From contig JAAYTA010000021.1 in NCBI GenBank assembly GCA_012518185.1, positions 1 through 34,669 on the forward strand: a stretch of DNA of 34,669 bases, given 5' to 3'. Origin of the DNA: Methanobacteriota archaeon. GTDB lineage: Archaea > Thermoplasmatota > Thermoplasmata > Methanomassiliicoccales > Methanomassiliicoccaceae. Both the position numbers and the translations under genes were made by a program. Shown here piece by piece: positions 3,566 to 32,684 of this stretch (its first letter is position 1; each line of letters begins with the position of its first letter). The notes below the pieces were generated by a model. That model ran no database searches. It had not been told where the DNA came from and saw nothing but the letters and a program-made list of their open reading frames with translations.

Positions 3566-3744
3566 ATAGAATTAATTTAATTGACAAGTTAGATACTTCC
3601 AGTATTGCTTATAATTTATTGATGATGTGAAGTGCAATTCCAAACAAGTTGCAGAAATTTAAAAAATTAATATATCCGGAATAGAGATCGTACTCAGACG
3701 ATCTGACATGCCGGATAGTTGATGTATTGATGCAATATTAGTGA

Positions 3745-5256
3745 TTATTGCATCGTTGCCTCAGCTCTTCCCTTTTCAGTCATATTTGCTAGAGTCTTTA
3801 CACGATCGACGTCAAGATCAAGAGCCTCTGCCACGCGAGTTCCATATTCCTCATCTGCCCTATAGAACACTGCAGCCTGTCGATATTGGATACGCTCCAA
3901 TGCCTTTCCTAAATGCCCAGCAATGTTGGAGATGAGATGATCTCTATCCATATCATTCATCGCTCGGCGATATAATTCGCCAGCTTGGAAATAATCATCT
4001 TGCACCATATCCATATCATGTCTTGCAATAACAGTAGCTTCTAGATCGATTGGAGGAACATCAGCCAACTCTCGCCATTCATGATGTTGATTCACAGAGT
4101 TTGGGAAGTAGTTAGCAGTACTACCATAATTATCACCTGTCATCATAACTCCATCTCTTTCATTAGTATAGATGGACGTCGCCTTAGGAGAGTTGACAGG
4201 TATGAGTTCATGATTCTTTCCTAGCCGGTATCGATGTGCATCGGGATACGCAAATAGCCTTCCTTGAAGCATCTTATCAGGAGACGGATATATACCCCTC
4301 ACTAGGGTACTAGGAGAGAATGCAGCCTGCTCTACTTCAGCAAAGAAGTTTTCAGGATTACGATTTAATACAATCTTACCTACTCGTATGAGTGGAAAAT
4401 CTGAATGGAACCACACTTTGGTCACATCAAACGGATCAAAGCGATATGTTCGTGCTTGTTCATCAGTCATTATCTGAACATATGCTGTCCATGATGGATA
4501 ATCTCCTCTTTCTATAGATTCAAATAAATCACGTGTCGCATGATCTGGATCTCTAGCAGACATTTCTTCTGCCTCTTGATCCGTTAAATTGGCTATCCCC
4601 TGATCAGTTAGGAAATGCCACTTAAACCAAATATATTCTCCATCTTCATTATAGAACATCCAAGTATTAGATGCAAATCCATGCATGTTGCGGAATGTAG
4701 CTGGAGTCCCTCGATCCGAGAATAGAATAGTGACTTGATGGACTGACTCGGGAGTTAGAGAAAGAAAATCCCAAAACATTGTATGGTCTTTCAAACCAGT
4801 CTGAGGGTCCCTTTTCTGTGTATGTATGAAATCGGGGAACTTCATAGCGTCCCGTATGAAGAAAATCGGTGTGTTATTACCTACAATATCATAATTACCT
4901 TCTTCAGTGTATAATTTTATAGCAAATCCTCGAGGATCGCGAGCTGCATCAGCAGAACCTCTTTCTCCCCCTACAGTTGAAAATCTCATGAATAATTCGG
5001 TTTTCTTACCTATCTCAGATAGGAATTTTGCACATGTGTATTCTGATATGTCATCAGTAACTTCAAAATATCCATATGCTCCCGCACCTTTGGCATGCAC
5101 CACTCTCTCTGGAATTCTTTCACGGACAAAATGTCCCAGCTTTTCCATTAGATATGCATCATTCACTAGTCCAAAGCTTTTCCTTCCTCCGGTTGTGATC
5201 GAAGATTGATCGTTCTCCACAGGTCTACCATATGCTGTAGTCAATTTCCTGCTCAT
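3745..5256 (-). CDS. katA: haem catalase (monofunctional, small-subunit type)
   Basis: Monofunctional haem catalase that breaks hydrogen peroxide into water and oxygen in the cytoplasm. With the start at 5256 it has 503 residues, typical of small-subunit catalases. The distal His is H54 in [11 protein letters not shown], the catalytic Asn lies in IVGNNTP (about 127-128), and the proximal haem-ligand Tyr is in [14 protein letters not shown] near 336. The reading frame can be extended 18 bases to a TTG at 5274, but TAGGAGAG lies just before the ATG at 5256, so I chose the ATG (MSRKL). It is a single gene. Catalase in a cell that also has anaerobic NrdD and ferredoxin-dependent oxidoreductases points to protection against occasional oxygen. 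Confidence 0.95.
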
Positions 5257-5480
5257 TCCACTCTCTCCTAACAACTCAGCCGAGGGAGTCCACAGTAGGC
5301 ATTACACGTATACTCACATTCTGCTGCAGGTTATTATCAATTGTATAATACATGTAATGGTAAATAGAGATTTTCCAACTTTAGAATTCGATTATATTTC
5401 ACTACTTCTCAGAAATGATATCTATGTTTATTGAGAAGGCGGAGAGATGACTGGGGCTCGGTAGTAATAAATACTTACAT

Positions 5481-5767
5481 GGTTTAGGAGAGTTGCTAGG
5501 CTCGACCGGGACGTTCGGCGCGTCCTTATACACCGCGACGTCGATAGCGGGGGTGACAGGAAAGGACGTCGTAACCGGAGAGGTGCGGGCCCTGTCGGTG
5601 ACCATGAGGCTCTGTCCCATGGGGTTGGAAGAGTCATAGAGGTGCGATCGGAGGGTCGCGCGCTATGTCATAGTCATGGGGAGCGGGTCAGGCCCTGACG
5701 GGAGCAGCCTTACCATGAATTACCAACGCTCAGGGGGTAGCGGGGCTGAGAAACTTGCAGGATAACC
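5481..5767 (+). ncRNA. signal recognition particle RNA (archaeal 7S RNA)
   Basis: A GC-rich island in AT-rich DNA that folds as archaeal SRP RNA. Helix 3 is GGACG (5509-5513) with CGTCC (5521-5525) around TTCGGCG; helix 4 is CCGC (5533-5536) with GCGG (5547-5550). Helix 6 has CATAG/CTATG (5635-5639, 5663-5667) and GTGCGATC/GGTCGCGC closed by a GGAG (GNAR) tetraloop at 5650-5653, the SRP19 site. Helix 8, the SRP54 site, has TCATGG/CCATGA (5674-5679, 5713-5718) enclosing GGTCAGG (5686-5692) and AGCAGCC (5703-5709). An AATAAATACTT TATA-like box lies near 5467-5477. The 5' and 3' ends are estimated from helix pairing and may be off by some 15 bases. Confidence 0.93.
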
Positions 5768-5806
5768 TTCATCAATTCGAGCGGCAACCTTTCTAGCCTA
5801 GCACTT

Positions 5807-6799
5807 TCATCTTATTAATGATGGTACTTTAGATGGATCACAGCCAGTAATTTTATCAACAGTAAAGTCAAACAGCTCAGCATTCTCATTATTCATATGA
5901 AGAGTTAGTTTCTTACTATCATTTACTTTACCTACTACTGATGCATCTACCTTGACATCGGAAAATAGATCAATGATAGCTTGAGAATTCTCTGGCAGGC
6001 ACGTAATAACAAACCCACATCCTTGATAAGCTCGTATCCATTGAGATAAGTCGACGCCATCAGGCATTGGTATTTTTGCTATATCTACTGTAGCACCTTT
6101 GCCACTTGTTTCTAAGAGCATTCCGAGTGTGCCCACGCAACCAGGATTGGATATGTCTTTACCTGAATTGGCAAGCTTTTTCCTGCCAATTTCATTCATA
6201 ACCATAAGTTGTTTACGACAAATATCGCTATCTTTTTGATAAGTTGTATCCCATGCATAGGGCAAGGATGGAGGAAAATATCCTTCAAGGTCCATCGCCA
6301 TTATTACGTCATCGCCTATCCGCGCAGTATGGCTGTAGATGACTTCATCTTTCCCAGCTGTTCCAAGTATAGCGATATCTATGGCATCATATTCGCAGTC
6401 AGGATGAGTATGTCCTCCGACGATAGGAACGCCGAACTTAGATACGGCTGCCTCAACTCCCCTCATCACTTGAGCACAGACTCTCTCATCTTTCATAGAT
6501 ATTATATCTACCATAGCGAGCGGGATGCCTCCCATAGCTACTATATCATTCAGATTGACAAGTACGGCATAATATCCTGCGATGAATGGATTAACCTTCA
6601 ATAATGATTCCATAATGCCATCTGCAGCTAGCAATAATACACTGTCATTATGTGCAACCACGGCGGCATCTTCACCATAAGATGCAAGGACTGTATTTGC
6701 CGACACGTTAGGAAAGAAAGAGATAACATCGGAGATAGCTGCTTTCCTCGTAACGCCTGGATGATTTCTGATGTCTTTTACCAGGGCATCCAAGTTCAT
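5807..6799 (-). CDS. AIR synthase-related (PurM/SelD-fold) protein, methanogenesis marker 2-like
   Basis: A PurM/HypE/SelD/ThiL-fold protein, these being ATP-dependent enzymes that make phosphoanhydride intermediates or ligations. The sequence, starting MNLDALVKDIRNHPGVTRK, resembles the family called methanogenesis marker 2, whose reaction is unknown. Visible elements are YGEDAAVV and LAADGIMESLL in the nucleotide-binding half, NLNDIVAMGG, and the glycine-rich VGGHTHPD. I chose ATG 6799 over an upstream in-frame GTG at 6835: the family begins near here, and AATATATTTA at 6823-6832 is then a TATA box about 28 bases before a leaderless start. It lies just downstream of a winged-helix gene on the same strand. 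ThiL or SelD are less likely. Confidence 0.72.
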   Translation of the reverse strand: MNLDALVKDIRNHPGVTRKAAISDVISFFPNVSANTVLASYGEDAAVVAHNDSVLLLAADGIMESLLKVNPFIAGYYAVLVNLNDIVAMGGIPLAMVDIISMKDERVCAQVMRGVEAAVSKFGVPIVGGHTHPDCEYDAIDIAILGTAGKDEVIYSHTARIGDDVIMAMDLEGYFPPSLPYAWDTTYQKDSDICRKQLMVMNEIGRKKLANSGKDISNPGCVGTLGMLLETSGKGATVDIAKIPMPDGVDLSQWIRAYQGCGFVITCLPENSQAIIDLFSDVKVDASVVGKVNDSKKLTLHMNNENAELFDFTVDKITGCDPSKVPSLIR

Positions 6800-6865
6800 G
6801 TCGGCAGTATAGTGCCCAAGGTTAAATATATTCACTATTAAAAAGGCCCATATGCTTGATAGATT

Positions 6866-16150: not shown

Positions 16151-16168
16151 TGATGCGATATGCATCAT
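16151..16168 (+). promoter_or_regulatory. hairpin upstream of the TPP aptamer with a match to the thiM start
   Basis: TGATGC-GATAT-GCATCA (16151-16167) is a perfect six-pair hairpin. Its 5' arm TGATGC recurs at the thiM start (16306-16311), and TGCATCAT (16161-16168) is perfectly complementary to ATGATGCA (16305-16312), which covers both candidate ATGs. If the transcript includes this segment, the GCATCA arm could pair either locally or with the start codon. The transcription start is unknown; a TATA-like TATTATTATACTATAA near 16041-16056 would include it. Confidence 0.35.
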
Positions 16169-16194
16169 GCTTAAGAAATTCACGAGTAAGTCAT

Positions 16195-16304
16195 GCATAC
16201 GAAAATGGGTGCCTGTTTGTAAAATACAAACTAAATGCAGAATCTGCAGGGCTGAGATGACACCATTAGAACTTGAACTGGGTAATGCCAGCGGAAGGAT
16301 ATAT
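16195..16304 (+). promoter_or_regulatory. TPP (thi-box) riboswitch controlling thiM
   Basis: The conserved thi-box parts occur in order: GGGTGCC (16207-16213), GGGCTGAGATGACACC (16249-16264) and CTGGGTAATGCCAGCG (16278-16293) with the P5 stem CTGG/CCAG. The P3 region is expanded into two hairpins: GTTTGTA-AAA-TACAAAC (16215-16231) and GCAG-AAT-CTGC (16237-16247). The aptamer runs directly into GGAAGGAT, the likely Shine-Dalgarno for ATG 16305, so ligand binding probably closes P1 over the ribosome site and blocks translation. P1 itself and the P4 segment (ATTAGAACTTGAA) diverge from the bacterial consensus. Ends are approximate. Confidence 0.92.
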
Positions 16305-17147
16305 ATGATGCAAGCAAGGAAGTTAGAGATTCAGAATCAGATTATCCAGGCAGTAGATCTAGTAAAAAAAACGAACCCAATGGCTGGATCGATTACAAAC
16401 ACTGTAACGATCAATTTTGTTGCAAATGCTCAGATTGCCATTGGCGGCTCTGCAGCTATGGTATTTATGCCTGATGAGGCCGAGACTCTTTCCAAGATGG
16501 GTGCGGCTACTTATGTGAATGTCGGAACTATTATACCAGTATACGATGAGACACTGCCGCGCGTAGCGGAGACACTCTATAAGGAAGGAAAGCCGTGGAT
16601 ACTAGATCCAGTTGCTGTGGGGATAGGAGATCTTAGAGAACGCGTTCTACGACAATTCAAATTCAGAAAGCCTAGTATTATTAGAGGAAACGCGTCCGAA
16701 ATTCTTGCTTTAGCTGGACTATGGGAGTTAGAGGGAGGAACAGGAAAATCTAATGTGCGTGGGGTAGATTCGACAGATTCAGTTATAGATGCTATGGATG
16801 CCGCTATCGCATTAGCCAAGTGGACTAATGGAGCAGTGGCCGTATCAGGAGAGACAGATCTAGTGACTGATGGCTCTATCGTAGTATTATCCTATGGCGG
16901 CTCCCATTTTATGGATAAAATAACAGGCTCAGGCTGTGCTCTAGGAGGAGTTATTGCTATATATTCTACAGTTACGTCTCCATTCATAGCAGCACTAACC
17001 GGTACGGCTGTGTTTAACTTAGCAGGGAATCGAGCCGAGAAAGTATCAGGAGGGCCTGGGAGCTTTCAAGTTGCGTTTCTTGATGAGTTATACAATGCTA
17101 CCGCATATGATATCGCTAACAATCCATTAGATATAAAGGAGGTTTGA
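16305..17147 (+). CDS. thiM: hydroxyethylthiazole kinase
   Basis: Phosphorylates 4-methyl-5-hydroxyethylthiazole for thiamine salvage; ribokinase-like fold, cytoplasmic. With the start at 16305 it has 280 residues, close to the family norm. NPMAGSITNTVTINFVANAQIAIGGSAAM near 24-52 is the thiazole-binding N-terminus, DPVAVG and IRGNASEI follow, and the anion-hole motif GSGC (208-211) provides the catalytic Cys211. The open frame extends upstream to 16167, but that extra part is the TPP riboswitch aptamer and not protein. ATG 16308 is an equally possible start. It heads a three-gene unit with the thiamine-binding protein and thiE. Confidence 0.95.
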   Translation: MMQARKLEIQNQIIQAVDLVKKTNPMAGSITNTVTINFVANAQIAIGGSAAMVFMPDEAETLSKMGAATYVNVGTIIPVYDETLPRVAETLYKEGKPWILDPVAVGIGDLRERVLRQFKFRKPSIIRGNASEILALAGLWELEGGTGKSNVRGVDSTDSVIDAMDAAIALAKWTNGAVAVSGETDLVTDGSIVVLSYGGSHFMDKITGSGCALGGVIAIYSTVTSPFIAALTGTAVFNLAGNRAEKVSGGPGSFQVAFLDELYNATAYDIANNPLDIKEV

Positions 17148-17150
17148 ATC

Positions 17151-17462
17151 ATGAATACCCTTATTGCTGTGGCAATTGCACCTCTAGGCATAGGTGATGA
17201 GCTCGCAGAAGAAGTTTCAGAAGTCATCAGAGTTATCCGTGAATCTGGATTACCGAATCGAACAACATCTATGTTCACAGAAATAGAAGGTGAATGGGAT
17301 GAAGTTATGAAAGTTGTAAAAGACGCAACTTTCGTACTTGCAAGCAAAGGGATACGCACCGAGGTTGTTCTAAAGGCAGATATCCGACCTGGACATACCG
17401 GAATGATAAAAAATAAGGTTGACAGAGTTGATGATATTCTGAGTGGGGGCAAGGATCATTAG
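17151..17462 (+). CDS. MTH1187/UPF0045-family thiamine-binding protein
   Basis: A 103-residue ferredoxin-like-fold protein of the MTH1187/YkoF-related family; members bind thiamine or related pyrimidine or thiazole compounds. The family pattern is visible: AVAIAPLGIGDELAEEVSEV at the N-terminus, FTEIEGEWDEVMKVVKDA in the middle and RTEVVLKADIRPGHTG near the end. AGGAGGT lies 7-8 bases before the ATG, and the stop of thiM is three bases away. It overlaps the start of thiE by 20 bases. Placement between two thiamine-salvage genes and under a TPP riboswitch supports a role in thiamine-precursor binding or delivery. Confidence 0.88.
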   Translation: MNTLIAVAIAPLGIGDELAEEVSEVIRVIRESGLPNRTTSMFTEIEGEWDEVMKVVKDATFVLASKGIRTEVVLKADIRPGHTGMIKNKVDRVDDILSGGKDH

Positions 17463-18165
17463 GGGAAATTTTGACATTTCTGCCTATCTCGTAATAGGTC
17501 CAGAAAACACTAACAAACATTCTGTAATTGATGTCATAAGATTTGCCATAGAAGCAGGATTTACTTGTGTGCAAATACGATCTAAAATAATCTCGGCCCG
17601 CGAACTTATCGATCTAACTACTCAAGCATCAGATATGATTTCTGAAATAGGATGTTCGGAGAAGGTATCATTGCTTGTTAATGATCGCCTCGATGCTATA
17701 TTAGCAGCCAGAATGCAAGGAGCTAGAGTCGATGGCATTCATATAGGTCAGTCAGATATTCCAGTCGAAGTTTGTCGGAAATATCTTGGAGATAATTCGA
17801 TCATTGGAGTATCTGCAAGAACTAGTGATTTATTCCAATATATCACGACCGCTGATATCAGTCAAATAGATTACTTCGGTGCAGGTCCTCTACATGAGAC
17901 CTCCACAAAGCCTGACTGTGGATTAGGTATTGATGGAAAAGTAATAACTAGGAGTTTTGATGAGATTGCCGAACTATCAAAAGCAAGCTCACTGCCTATT
18001 GTAGTTGGTGGCGGTGTAAAGCTTTCTGATATACCACAATTATCTAGAACGGGTGTAGATGGCTTCTTCGTCGTATCTGCTGTTGCTGGAGCCGATAATC
18101 CATGTACTGAGGCTAAAAAGCTTGTAGAAGCATGGAATAATAATAGGCCTAAAAATAATGAGTAG
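17443..18165 (+). CDS. thiE: thiamine-phosphate synthase
   Basis: Joins hydroxymethylpyrimidine diphosphate to thiazole phosphate to make thiamine monophosphate; TIM-barrel enzyme. The 240 residues carry the family motifs: VQIRSK, LLVNDRLDAI, DGIHIGQSD, GVSART, YFGAGPLHETSTKPD (pyrophosphate-binding Thr and Lys), VVGGGV and FFVVSAVAGADNP. The GTG start lies inside the preceding gene, so translation is probably coupled. ThiC, ThiD, ThiN and Thi4 are not in the window, so this cluster covers thiazole salvage and final condensation; the pyrimidine half must come from elsewhere. Confidence 0.93.
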   Translation: MGARIIRGNFDISAYLVIGPENTNKHSVIDVIRFAIEAGFTCVQIRSKIISARELIDLTTQASDMISEIGCSEKVSLLVNDRLDAILAARMQGARVDGIHIGQSDIPVEVCRKYLGDNSIIGVSARTSDLFQYITTADISQIDYFGAGPLHETSTKPDCGLGIDGKVITRSFDEIAELSKASSLPIVVGGGVKLSDIPQLSRTGVDGFFVVSAVAGADNPCTEAKKLVEAWNNNRPKNNE

Positions 18166-28183: not shown

Positions 28184-28777
28184 TTATCTATCTTTTACCT
28201 CATTATATCCCAAATCAAATGCTCTTATATTCACGTCCTGTGCCTTAGTGGGTACTGCATCTAGCAATGCATCTAACACTCTCTGCCTAGATAGTGGAAA
28301 TCCCTTGACAGCAGCTATAGCTCCGATTAATACAGCATTGGCAGTTATCGCCCTACCTGCCTCGATAGCTCTTGCTGTCGCGTCGATAGCAATTACCTTC
28401 TCATTCACAGAACGAAGTGCATCTAATATTTCATCCAGTGGGGGATAAACACCCTGTCCGATAGATACGCTTATGGGAATGATCGGAGACGTATTGGTTA
28501 TTATGAAACTGTTTTGACTCACTGAAGTAATATTTCGTAAAGTCTCTGCTGGTTCAAATCCTAGCAGTAAGTCTGCTCCTCCAGCAGGGATGAGCGGAGA
28601 ATATATTTCATGTCCAAATCTTACTGAACATTGAACACTCCCTCCTCGCTGTGCCATACCATGAACTTCAGACATAGCAACTTCCAAACCTTCGGAAACT
28701 GCAGCGTTGCCAAGAACGGTAGATGCAAGTAAAACTCCTTGCCCACCAACACCAACTAGCTGAATATTATATTTCAT
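28184..28777 (-). CDS. iorB: indolepyruvate ferredoxin oxidoreductase, beta subunit
   Basis: Small subunit of the enzyme that oxidatively decarboxylates aryl-pyruvates, from aromatic amino acid breakdown, to aryl-acetyl-CoA with ferredoxin as acceptor. The 197 residues start MKYNIQLVGVGGQGVLLAST, the glycine-rich gamma-domain signature, and contain MSEVHGMAQRGGSVQC, typical of IorB, then DLLLGFEPAETLR. Its ATG overlaps the iorA stop by four bases. It is the last gene of the por-ior operon. Confidence 0.94.
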   Translation of the reverse strand: MKYNIQLVGVGGQGVLLASTVLGNAAVSEGLEVAMSEVHGMAQRGGSVQCSVRFGHEIYSPLIPAGGADLLLGFEPAETLRNITSVSQNSFIITNTSPIIPISVSIGQGVYPPLDEILDALRSVNEKVIAIDATARAIEAGRAITANAVLIGAIAAVKGFPLSRQRVLDALLDAVPTKAQDVNIRAFDLGYNEVKDR

Positions 28778-30591
28778 TCTATAACCTCGATGGCATCTTT
28801 AGGACATACTTGTGCACAGACGCCGCATCCAATACACATAGTTATGTCAATTTTGACGTCCTTCACATCTTTGCTGATAGCGGGACATGACAGTTTAGAT
28901 ACACATGCATAGCAACGAATGCATTTATCTTGATTTACCATATAGGGTAAGCGTCGGAGGCTTACCTCCTTACGTGTGAGTAGTGGGCATGGATGTTCAG
29001 CAATAATTACCGATAATTCATCGCAATTGATTGCTTCCTTCATGACCTCTATGGTCGCCTCTAGATCATAAGGATCCACTGTTTTAACATTCTTAACACC
29101 ACATGCTTTTACAATTGGTTCCAGCTGAATAGATGGTGTTTCGATCCCACCATATTCTCTGCCTACTCCAGGATTTGGCTGGTGTCCTGTCATAGCCGTA
29201 GTTCGATTATCCATTATTACTAGTACGAAGTTATGATCGTTGTAGACTGCATTGATAAGTGGCGGTATGCCAGCGTGGAAAAAAGTAGAGTCACCTATGA
29301 ATGCTACAACTTTTTGATCAGTTACTTGGGAAAATCCTCCTGCTGCCCCTACACTTGAGCCCATGCAGAGTGTTAGATCAGCACATTGCATGGGTGGCTG
29401 CACGCCGAGCGTATAACATCCTATATCTGTAGAATATATCGCACCTTTTGATCCAACAGCACTTTTAGTTGCATAAAATGTGGCTCTGTGAGGACATCCT
29501 GCACAAAGTACCGGTGGGCGTGGTGGGAGAGGTACATCGGGCTGCGTGGTAGGAGAAGATCCCTCCTTAACTGGTAATATATCTTTTAGAGATAGTATCA
29601 GATCAGGAGAATATTCAAAGGCACGGGGAAGGTGTCCGGTTCGTTTACCTAATATATTCACATTTAAACCATATTGTTGAGCGATACGTCGGACCTCATC
29701 TTCCATATATGGCTCTAACTCTTCAAGTATTACTACTCGATCTTTTCCAGATAAAAATTTTTTGACCTTTTCCTCCGGCAATGGATGTGTAAAGCCAAGT
29801 TTGAGAATATCTACATCTTTAACCCATTCTCGAGCGTATGTAAATGCTACACCACTTGCTATAATGCCAATACGAGAACTTGTTCCAAATACGCAGTTGT
29901 GCGTTGATGCTTCCGATAATTTGAGCGCATGTTCCATACGTTTGAGCTGTTCGATGCGCAATGTTCGTGCATTAGCAGGGACAGTGACAAATCGTTGAGG
30001 ATCTTTTACGAAAGTTGCTTTGGTAGTAGGTCGAGGTGCTTTATGAAGATCAATGACGCCGCGAGCATGATTTATCCTCGTTGTAGTCCTTAATATGACT
30101 GGTACGGATAGAAGTTCTGAAAGGCGATAGCCTTCAAGCACCATATCTCGGGCTTCAGCGGGAGTAGAGGGCTCCAACATAGGCAATAGTCCTAATTTTG
30201 AAAAGTATCGATTATCTTGCTCACTCTGGGAACTATGACATGATGGATCATCAGCTGTCATTACTACCATTCCAGCTCTAACGCCTGTGGCAGCCAGTGT
30301 CATTAGAGCATCGCTAGCCACATTCATTCCAACATGTTTCATGAAAGCGAAGGAGCGGACACCAGATATAGCTGCTGCACCGGCTACTTCAAGAGCAACT
30401 TTTTCATTGACTGAATATTCGAAATACATCCCCGCCTGAGCGGAGATTTCTTCAAGTACCTTTCCTACTTCCGAGGACGGAGTCCCTGGATATGTTGCAG
30501 CTAGTCCTACACCGGCCTCAATAACGCCTCGGGCGATAGCTTCATTGCCTAAGAGAAGAAGTTTTCCTCTATCTGCCAGCAACCTTTCCAA
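28774..30591 (-). CDS. iorA: indolepyruvate ferredoxin oxidoreductase, alpha subunit
   Basis: Large subunit with thiamine diphosphate and iron-sulfur clusters. It runs from the pyrimidine domain (LLLGNEAIARGVIEAG, then YPGTPSSE) through SQSEQDNRY and a long middle domain, to the thiamine diphosphate site (CAGCPHR near the middle, GDSTFFHAGIPPLINAVYN) and two C-terminal [4Fe-4S] motifs, CIRCYAC...CP and CIGCGVCAQVCP. About 605 residues. I prefer TTG 30591, with AGGAAGTGA overlapping the porB stop; the frame also has an ATG at 30624 giving 616 residues and a 29-base overlap with porB. It is placed directly after porB in an operon that handles both pyruvate and aryl-pyruvates. Confidence 0.93.
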   Translation of the reverse strand: MERLLADRGKLLLLGNEAIARGVIEAGVGLAATYPGTPSSEVGKVLEEISAQAGMYFEYSVNEKVALEVAGAAAISGVRSFAFMKHVGMNVASDALMTLAATGVRAGMVVMTADDPSCHSSQSEQDNRYFSKLGLLPMLEPSTPAEARDMVLEGYRLSELLSVPVILRTTTRINHARGVIDLHKAPRPTTKATFVKDPQRFVTVPANARTLRIEQLKRMEHALKLSEASTHNCVFGTSSRIGIIASGVAFTYAREWVKDVDILKLGFTHPLPEEKVKKFLSGKDRVVILEELEPYMEDEVRRIAQQYGLNVNILGKRTGHLPRAFEYSPDLILSLKDILPVKEGSSPTTQPDVPLPPRPPVLCAGCPHRATFYATKSAVGSKGAIYSTDIGCYTLGVQPPMQCADLTLCMGSSVGAAGGFSQVTDQKVVAFIGDSTFFHAGIPPLINAVYNDHNFVLVIMDNRTTAMTGHQPNPGVGREYGGIETPSIQLEPIVKACGVKNVKTVDPYDLEATIEVMKEAINCDELSVIIAEHPCPLLTRKEVSLRRLPYMVNQDKCIRCYACVSKLSCPAISKDVKDVKIDITMCIGCGVCAQVCPKDAIEVIE

Positions 30592-30595
30592 CCAT

Positions 30596-31507
30596 TCACT
30601 TCCTACTCGCCTCCATCCTGGCATCTAGCTCTCTGAGCCTATTATCGACGAGATTCTGGATTTCGGAAATCTGTGTCGGGCTGAGATGTCTAAAGCGCCT
30701 CTGAAGGCGAAGATATTCTTCAACCGGCTTCCTATCCTTAATCTCTTCGGTGAATTGATACTGGCTATCGCGGTATTCGTAGAGTGGAAACATACCGGTT
30801 TGAGTTGCCAATTTCGCAACTTCAACAGTTTTGGATGGATCCATTTTCCATCCTGAAGGGCAAGGTGATAAAATGTGTAGGAATTTAGGTCCACGTATAG
30901 ATTGAGCTATCTGGGCGCGCTTTATGAGATCCTCAGGGAATGCTATGTTTACAGTAGCTGCATAAGAGATGCCATTCTCTACTAACATCTCTAGTATTCG
31001 CTTCTTGCCTGTTCGATGAGAAATCTCATTGCCACCAGGAGTTGTTGTAGTCCATGCACCCCATGGCGTAGATCCTGAGCACTGTGATCCCGTATTCATA
31101 TACGCTTCATTATCATACATAACATACAGAAAATCGGTCCCTCGATCGATGGCGCCTGAAAGAGATTGTAATCCGATATCTACGGTTCCACCATCTCCCG
31201 CCCAGCCAACCACTGTTATGTCGTTCATGCCTTTTGCATCTAGGGCAGCTCGGATGCCTGATGAGGTAGCACCAGTGCATTCGAAAGCATGATCAATCAA
31301 TGGGATCTTAAGCGAATATCGTGGCCAGACTCCTGGTATGACTGCACAACATCCTGCTGGAACATTCATCACAGTCCTAGGTCCTAGTGCCTTTAACAAT
31401 AAACGCATAGCTATCGGCTCTCCACAGCCAGGACATGCACTATGACCTGGATGCATCAATTCTTCTCTGGGTATGATGAATTTACCGCTCATATGTTCTC
31501 TAATCAA
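30596..31507 (-). CDS. porB: pyruvate:ferredoxin oxidoreductase, beta subunit
   Basis: Subunit that binds thiamine diphosphate and a [4Fe-4S] cluster. C25-x2-C28 (HSACPGCGEP), the Cys pair in AGCCAVIPG and a later Cys in ILSPCPSGWK are cluster-ligand candidates. The cofactor motif is GDGGTVDIGLQSLSGAI followed by YDNEAYMNTGSQ. I chose TTG 31507, one base after the porA stop, with GGAGGTG overlapping the end of porA. An ATG at 31528 in the same frame, inside porA, is less likely. Pyruvate is the likeliest substrate for a separate four-subunit set of this kind; 2-oxoisovalerate is possible. Confidence 0.92.
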   Translation of the reverse strand: MIREHMSGKFIIPREELMHPGHSACPGCGEPIAMRLLLKALGPRTVMNVPAGCCAVIPGVWPRYSLKIPLIDHAFECTGATSSGIRAALDAKGMNDITVVGWAGDGGTVDIGLQSLSGAIDRGTDFLYVMYDNEAYMNTGSQCSGSTPWGAWTTTTPGGNEISHRTGKKRILEMLVENGISYAATVNIAFPEDLIKRAQIAQSIRGPKFLHILSPCPSGWKMDPSKTVEVAKLATQTGMFPLYEYRDSQYQFTEEIKDRKPVEEYLRLQRRFRHLSPTQISEIQNLVDNRLRELDARMEASRK

Positions 31508-31508
31508 T

Positions 31509-32684
31509 TCACCACCTCCCCGAGCCATCCCTCAGGCCTACCCATTCGATTTTACGATCGAGTCCATTATCTAATATATCTAACATATTACGGAAAATCC
31601 ACTCTATATGTGCAGCTGTTACATCTCGGCCACCTAGGCCTCCAACATAATTCTTGATTATATTGTCTGAACCGTGCATGGCTGATCGGACTTCGTTGAA
31701 CATTGCTCCTCCATCTCCGAAAGTATAACTCCGGTCAAATACGCCAATTACATCTTTCGAATTGAGCTCAGCTATCTCTTCAGACGGGAATGGGCGGAAT
31801 ACTCGCATTCTTGCAACTCCTACTCTTAAACCCTCATCGCGCAAGTGATCCACTACTTCTTTAGCAGTACCAGCTGCCGAGCCAGCGATTACTAAAACTA
31901 CGTCGGCATCATCAGTCCTGTAATTTTCAACTAATCCTCCATAATTGCGGCCAAATATCTTACCAAATTCAGCATCAGCTTCTTGGATTCTTTTTTTCGC
32001 ACCCTCCATATCTAGAGCAATGCGATAGCGGAATTCGGTCCACCAATCTGGCATTATTAAGCCACCAAACCGGCGAGGATCATCTATATTAAGCACAGGA
32101 TCTGGGTTAAACGATGGGAGGTATTCATCCACTAGGTGCTGTTCTGGAACACTTACTGCATCTACTGTATGTGTGAGTATGAATCCATCAATAACTACCA
32201 TGGCTGGCAACATAACTGATGGATCTTCGGATACTTTGTATGCCATGAGGACAGTATCTAAAACTTCTTGATTATTTTCACAATAGAACTGCATCCACCC
32301 CACATCTCTTTCAGTGATCACATCCATATGTTCTCCCCATATGTTCCATGGACCTCCTATCGTACGCGCTGCTACAGGCATGACTATAGGTCTTCTGACA
32401 CCTGAGGCCCACATTAGTACCTCATGCATAAGTGCAAGCCCATGGGATGACGTTGCTGTAAATGTCCTTGCACCAACATATGATGCTCCTATCAGCGCCG
32501 ACATTGCAGAATGCTCACTCTCCATGAGCATGAATCGGGCATCTAACTCTCCGCGCGATACCATCTCAGCCATCATCTCTGAGATTGTAGTCTGAGGAGT
32601 TATTGGATACACAGCAGCAACTTCTATTCTAGCAAGTTTGGCCGCTATAGCTGCCGCTTGATTGGCAGTTAATGCATCAATCAT
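31509..32684 (-). CDS. porA: pyruvate:ferredoxin oxidoreductase, alpha subunit
   Basis: Alpha subunit with the pyrimidine-binding domain and domain II. From ATG 32684 it reads MIDALTANQAAAIAAKLARI, then AVYPITPQTTISE, MESEHSAMSALIGASYVGARTFTATSSHGL, and GDGGAMFNEVRSA near the end; 391 residues. The frame is open to an ATG at 32723, but that lies inside porD, while ATG 32684 has GAGGGAG before it and an ATGA overlap with the porD stop. It forms the catalytic core with PorB. Confidence 0.93.
   Translation of the reverse strand: MIDALTANQAAAIAAKLARIEVAAVYPITPQTTISEMMAEMVSRGELDARFMLMESEHSAMSALIGASYVGARTFTATSSHGLALMHEVLMWASGVRRPIVMPVAARTIGGPWNIWGEHMDVITERDVGWMQFYCENNQEVLDTVLMAYKVSEDPSVMLPAMVVIDGFILTHTVDAVSVPEQHLVDEYLPSFNPDPVLNIDDPRRFGGLIMPDWWTEFRYRIALDMEGAKKRIQEADAEFGKIFGRNYGGLVENYRTDDADVVLVIAGSAAGTAKEVVDHLRDEGLRVGVARMRVFRPFPSEEIAELNSKDVIGVFDRSYTFGDGGAMFNEVRSAMHGSDNIIKNYVGGLGGRDVTAAHIEWIFRNMLDILDNGLDRKIEWVGLRDGSGRW

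Follow-up and report, generated by a model that had tools for sequence, protein, structure and literature searches.

The leader of thiM and its fold

The stretch of DNA analysed here (the window; 34,669 nucleotides, contig JAAYTA010000021.1 of assembly GCA_012518185.1) comes from an archaeon of the order Methanomassiliicoccales. On its forward strand it carries thiM, the gene for hydroxyethylthiazole kinase, preceded by a leader that resembles the thiamine pyrophosphate (TPP) riboswitch, or THI element (Rfam RF00059). A sequence-only reading of the window had placed a TPP aptamer in an archaeon ahead of thiM, and we confirm this by the RF00059 score, by RNAalifold and by archaeal markers in the same window (archaeal signal recognition particle (SRP) RNA, eIF-6, and methanogenesis marker 2 above its cut-off). 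What that reading had observed stands, while its interpretation holds only in part. The comparison presented below suggests that the element is real and conserved, and very probably a working TPP switch. The leader and gene are laid out as follows:

16205–16299 (+): TPP riboswitch aptamer proper, P2-P3-P4-P5 with no conserved P1 (RF00059, RNAalifold on eight copies, pair counts)
16205–16210 (+): 5′ side of P2 (AUGG, G, U), partners at 16260 and 16263–16266, paired in 8/8 copies
16211–16214 (+): 5′ side of P3 (GCCU), partner GGGC at 16249–16252, paired in 8/8 copies
16215–16231 (+): first extra hairpin inside P3 (GUUUGU/ACAAAC), two pairs with two-sided changes over eight sequences
16236–16248 (+): second extra hairpin inside P3 (UGCAG/CUGCA), one two-sided pair, one mismatch in genome G022
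16251–16257 (+): GCUGAGA, the 5′ core of the thi-box, invariant in 8/8 copies
16272–16297 (+): P4 (CUU 16272–16274 with AAG 16295–16297), P5 (16278–16281 with 16288–16291) and loop L5 with UAAU (pair counts, RNAalifold)
16296–16299 (+): AGGA, the ribosome binding site, overlapping P4 by half (from the sequence, and from the 16S 3′ end of five relatives)
16305–17147 (+): thiM, hydroxyethylthiazole kinase, 280 residues, likely start ATG at 16305, with ATG 16308 also in frame
16167–16304 (+): in-frame stretch before thiM, judged not coding (stops in relatives, frame not kept)

In a covariance-model search RF00059 matches the window at 16195–16316 (+), over model positions 1–105, with 52.8 bits and an E-value of 1.7e-9. 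Because the Rfam gathering cut-off for this family is 54.3 bits, a gathering-threshold scan of the window gives no TPP match. The thi-box elements are GCTGAGA (16251–16257), GAACTTGA, CTGGGTAATGCCAG and then GGAAGGA ending at 16299; the match is full length, with the UGAGA core and a UAAU L5, and the core columns are unchanged in all eight copies from the order. Within the draft genome (1.6 Mb, 139 contigs) the thiM leader is the only RF00059 match, at the same bit score. Matches are found in 8 of the 147 genomes of the order, always directly before thiM, and the other seven copies score 48.4–58.2 bits. One of the eight passes the cut-off, at 58.2 bits; seven fall under it, which is why annotation misses these. 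We also built a model, R1, from the eight copies; it matches its own sources by construction (118.3–126.6 bits), and over the 147 genomes it returned the same eight and no ninth. The sequence-only reading had named a covariance-model score below threshold as a refutation of the riboswitch; taken literally the window gives such a score, by 1.5 bits, but in substance the aptamer is supported by the copies in seven other genomes and the agreement with R1. We therefore argue for membership of RF00059 from the E-value, the full-length architecture, the covariation and the gene context rather than from the curated cut-off.

The eight leaders were aligned and given to RNAalifold without guidance, and pairs were then counted on a hand-assigned structure. 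RNAalifold returned P2, P3, two hairpins inside P3, P4 and P5, recovering 26 of the 27 hand-assigned pairs. Over the eight copies 99.5% of the cells of the named structure are paired and four pairs are changed on both sides, a covariation score reached by 0 of 500 shuffles; slid structures pair 35–51%. The two-sided changes lie in P4 and the two P3 hairpins, whereas the majority of pairs are invariant, and those of P2, P3 and P5 never vary and have no covariation of their own. One P4 pair in genome G012 changes from U-A to G-C, despite weakening AGGA to CGGA. Conservation reaches from ATGGG to GGA, and the sequence just outside this stretch is not conserved. An extra hairpin had been read in the P3 region; it is indeed there, but as two hairpins (16215–16231 and 16236–16248) and not one. 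Rfam also provides for a hairpin between UGAGA and ACC, in our view the P3a of PMC2258182; the window aptamer has none. UGAGA itself holds the pyrimidine ring of the ligand in solved TPP aptamers, as described in the same paper. Folding energy is little informative (z −0.14 with flanks, z −1.41 for 16203–16304), and the case for the aptamer is the family score and the covariation, not the energy.

The closing helix P1 belongs to the Rfam consensus and is variable in sequence. We sought it by eye, in the Rfam register and by free complementarity, and found no conserved P1 in the archaeal copies. In the Rfam register, each of the seven archaeal copies displayed (L008 excluded) fails to form 2–4 of the 5 pairs of P1. 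When five positions are scored at three shifts, the eight archaeal copies have a mean of 2.1 pairs of 5, compared with 2.70 for random letters, 4.05 for 19 bacterial leaders and 3.47 for 30 other leaders of the phylum. The bacterial leaders come from 19 of 32 loci at which thiM is of the same clade as in the window (see below); not among the 19 are L048 and L067 (without a 5′ box), L039, L040, L041, L060 and L065 (no aptamer), and L050–L053, L055 and L057 (missed by the pattern; 3–4 of 5 in another scoring). A P1 candidate in the window, GTCATG/TATGAT over the start codon, is kept in none of the other seven copies, and we do not claim it.

Origin of the gene and of its aptamer

ThiM scores 192.6 bits with PF02110 (over 27) and 224 with NF006830 (over a cut-off of 180), while TIGR00694 gives 193.5 bits, under its cut-off of 256.4. 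It is followed by two further thiamine-related genes:

17151–17462 (+): thiamine-binding protein, MTH1187 type (PF01910, 85.3 bits over 24.9)
17443–18165 (+): thiE, thiamine phosphate synthase (PF02581, 127.1 bits over 27)

The order thiM-PF01910-thiE, which makes up the thiamine-related genes downstream of the aptamer, is found in six of the eight archaeal copies and in many bacteria; G134 and G135 (L013, L016), unlike the other six, have no PF01910 match between thiM and thiE. In a tree of ThiM proteins (69 of 70 rows, L070 being dropped with its thiM match split in two pieces; the tree includes 22 native archaeal ThiMs, a subset of those existing) the eight archaeal ThiMs form one clade (100/98). 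This is nested in a 40-row clade (100/99) that is otherwise bacterial apart from Halarchaeoplasma, and the 22 native ThiMs of the same order are grouped apart from it (100/99). L039, L040, L041 and L060 join the eight in a 14-row group (90/94), and the ThiM of L110, from a same-class genome, is identical to that of L041. A thiM search gave matches in 95 of the 147 genomes of the order, with the clade of the window in exactly the eight that have the aptamer; the other seven ThiMs of the clade are 63–74% identical to that of the window, and the next best in the order is 38%. Five of the eight genomes (G017, G019, G022, G134, G135) have a second, distant thiM, which is without an RF00059 match since all eight genomes have a single one. 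The other three of the eight, which belong to the genus of the window, have the bacterial-type thiM alone, and G010 and G013, of the same genus, have only the distant type. From the tree placement and the shared gene order we conclude that the operon is, on this evidence, of bacterial descent and was transferred.

Outside the eight, a TPP aptamer lies upstream of same-clade thiM in 27 of the 32 loci, with GUUGAGA in 27/27 and the 3′ box 86–269 nucleotides from the start of the thiM match; no aptamer was found within 420 nucleotides of thiM at L039, L040, L041, L060 and L065. The Rfam scan covered 19 of the 32 same-clade loci and 18 of the 22 native loci. The bacterial riboswitches (Coriobacteriia, Treponema, Anaerolineaceae and others) resemble that of the window in the downstream operon thiM-PF01910-thiE, but unlike it they have GUUGAGA, P3a, P1, a site far upstream and often a T-run before thiM. 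The one displayed for L070 has two fewer bases between P4 and P5 than the window aptamer. At the Treponema locus L053 thiM is preceded by two TPP aptamer matches, one on each strand and back to back (3596–3702, − strand; 3820–3920, + strand), and in four bacterial relatives (L044, L045, L046, L053) glycine riboswitches lie 2–4 kb from thiM.

By these features the archaeal aptamer is evidently not the sampled bacterial one, and it would either have been gained anew or have come with an unsampled donor; we infer that the gene did not bring it along from the bacterial lineages sampled. The gene was transferred and its switch looks replaced, and the two seem to have separate histories. Our tentative proposal, which could well be right although we stop a little short of calling it probable, is that a bacterial salvage operon entered methanogens and lost its own aptamer, with P1 and a distant, often terminator-like platform. 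It would then have gained an unrelated TPP aptamer that shed P1, put the ribosome site in P4 and expanded P3 to a three-way junction, so that the control element was exchanged to suit expression in the host. It is also possible, if rather doubtful, that a single unsampled bacterial lineage passed on both aptamer and operon and nothing was replaced, which would be compatible with the mechanism proposed below. The relatives were found by six peptide patterns and amount to only 39 loci, and bacterial CUGAGA aptamers without P3a do exist (L071 in Microbacterium, before a distant thiM, and L116 in a Desulfobacteraceae genome). Against joint inheritance, however, all 27 aptamers upstream of same-clade thiM outside the eight are of the other type, L039, L040 and L041 group with the eight and still lack a nearby aptamer, and R1 found no match above 47.6 bits in 16 whole genomes of the same-clade set, far from its 118.3–126.6 bits on the eight.

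Start of thiM and proposed control

The ribosome binding site AGGA lies on one side of P4, 5 nucleotides before the ATG of thiM. The spacer from GGA to ATG is 5 nucleotides in seven of the eight copies; in the remaining copy, that of G135, the first ATG directly follows GGA and the aligned start comes 6 nucleotides later. As the draft genome of the window has no 16S rRNA, we took the anti-Shine-Dalgarno sequence from five relatives, in which CACCTCCT is read at the 16S end. That the aptamer 3′ end forms the ribosome binding site had already been suggested from the sequence-only reading, and it is borne out here. Use of a ribosome binding site within the core of a TPP aptamer is termed ‘direct translation attenuation’ in PMC2258182 (Barrick and Breaker, 2007), and in the window the site does lie inside the aptamer core and close to the start codon. 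Translational control follows from this layout, and direct translational repression of thiM by TPP appears likely; TPP binding, the direction of control and the translational mechanism are what we infer. ThiC is encoded in the genome, which means that there is a TPP pathway for a switch to control.

We are fairly confident that the leader acts as an OFF switch that responds to TPP and works directly on translation. The leader of the mRNA would fold into the TPP aptamer, with the ribosome-recruiting AGGA in the 3′ strand of P4. When TPP is plentiful, it would bind between P2/P3, the arm with UGAGA, and the arm of P4/P5 and keep P4 closed, excluding the 30S subunit from the start site and lowering synthesis of ThiM, perhaps also of the coupled downstream thiamine-binding protein and ThiE. 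When TPP is scarce, P4 would open and the salvage operon would be translated.

Several observations speak against such a switch. The window copy misses the family cut-off, as noted above; the base just 5′ of P5, a conserved U in Rfam, is A in the window (16277) and A, C or U among the eight; and AGGA is a short ribosome binding site. Free-energy folding of the eight ligand-free leaders gave no consistent open (ON) state. In the unconstrained ensemble the leading AG of AGGA is mostly paired in every one of the eight (probability unpaired 0.02–0.32), in some leaders with CCU of P3. A TATA-like box that would put the start of the transcript at the aptamer was also sought in the eight leaders and none is common to all; the window has TTAAGAAA 34 nucleotides before P2.

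Control of transcription, by pausing or termination, instead of translation would fit the operons elsewhere, where the aptamer lies 86–269 nucleotides upstream and a T-run stands between it and thiM in 15 of the 19 scored same-clade loci. We consider it improbable for the archaeal copies, since at most a few nucleotides separate aptamer and ATG in all eight and leave no room for a terminator. Slightly less probable still is that the leader is a decayed TPP aptamer kept by chance and no longer regulating. The missing P1 and the seven scores under the Rfam cut-off could be read in this way, but the core is invariant and the helices are compensated across genomes whose ThiMs have 63–74% identity to that of the window, while the flanks are not conserved.

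The open frame at 16167–17147 (326 residues) runs through the aptamer into thiM, and the 46-residue extension that it implies had been called false, rightly in our view. Stops in the thiM frame occur within the aptamer in three of the eight copies (G022, G134, G135), and 4 (G019) and 13 (G017) nucleotides before it. The distance from P2 to the ATG, taken modulo 3, is 1, 1, 2, 1, 2, 2, 0, 0 over the eight (for G022 and G019 the ATG used is the first one, in frame with the aligned start and 6 nucleotides upstream of it). As stops fall inside the aptamer and the leader length is not constant modulo 3, the extension is judged not coding, and the open frame in the window is, by this comparison, due to chance. 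That 16167–16304 encodes a genuine N-terminus of ThiM, its resemblance to an RNA being incidental, is hardly credible: the window has no stop in this frame from 16167 onwards, and G009 none over 143 codons upstream, but apart from the stops and the shifting frame, the leader hairpins covary as RNA and the Pfam HK domain starts at residue 65 of the long form.

Distribution, surroundings and significance

TPP riboswitches had been said to be known in few archaea. This does not hold for the phylum, where 102 of the 389 genomes sampled have RF00059 at E ≤ 0.001, 85 of them above the cut-off, though the element is rare in the order of the window. We read 30 loci from the 102 positive genomes. These Thermoplasmatota aptamers are like that of the window in GCUGAGA, a similar P5, a purine-rich 3′ end and a position often beside a start codon; they differ in having P3a between UGAGA and ACC and a short plain P3, and, judged by eye, they appear ahead of transport and other membrane proteins and not of thiM. 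R1 gives 23.6–47.3 bits on them. Compared with RF00059 in general, the window aptamer shares P2, P3, the UGAGA arm, P4, P5, the UAAU loop and the thiamine salvage context, but has no conserved P1, two hairpins branching in P3 and no P3a, and a score just below the cut-off. With the direct translation attenuation riboswitches described in PMC2258182 it shares the ribosome binding site in the conserved aptamer 3′ end; it differs in standing in a methanogen. Four points go beyond what had been read from the window before: P1 is missing, P3 holds a second hairpin, the gene is of bacterial origin, and the bacterial copies have an aptamer of a different type.

McrA is encoded in 115 of the 147 genomes in the order but missing from the draft genome of the window, and the archaeon is called a methanogen on that count and for the methanogenesis marker 2 gene that the window carries. 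Methanomassiliicoccales is the known methanogenic order in the group to which Halarchaeoplasma also belongs. The archaeal SRP RNA (5494–5803, + strand) ends 4 nucleotides before the convergent methanogenesis marker 2 gene (5807–6835, − strand). A full-length catalase (3745–5274, − strand; PF00199, 616.5 bits) lies in this genome of a methanogenic order, and among NCBIfam models catalase HPII comes closest to it, with a score under the cut-off of that model. At 28774–31528 (− strand) are indolepyruvate ferredoxin oxidoreductase alpha (TIGR03336, 799 bits over 650.9) and an adjoining second TPP-enzyme protein, so that TPP-dependent enzymes share the window with the TPP switch.

A literature search, with most subscription papers outside its coverage, found no paper on a TPP riboswitch in Methanomassiliicoccales or on TPP aptamers without P1. 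According to a 2021 paper (PMC8241225), the fluoride riboswitch was the only natural archaeal riboswitch to have been determined experimentally, so that a TPP switch which is compact and has a clear predicted target makes a good test case. In a survey of 2012 (PMC3486863), RNA families were held to have passed between domains only minimally, and the history of the TPP riboswitch was left unresolved. For annotation, the frame through the aptamer is an invitation to a wrong thiM start, and the seven of eight members under the Rfam cut-off mark a practical blind spot. The thiM locus of these archaea allows a gene and its switch to be traced separately.
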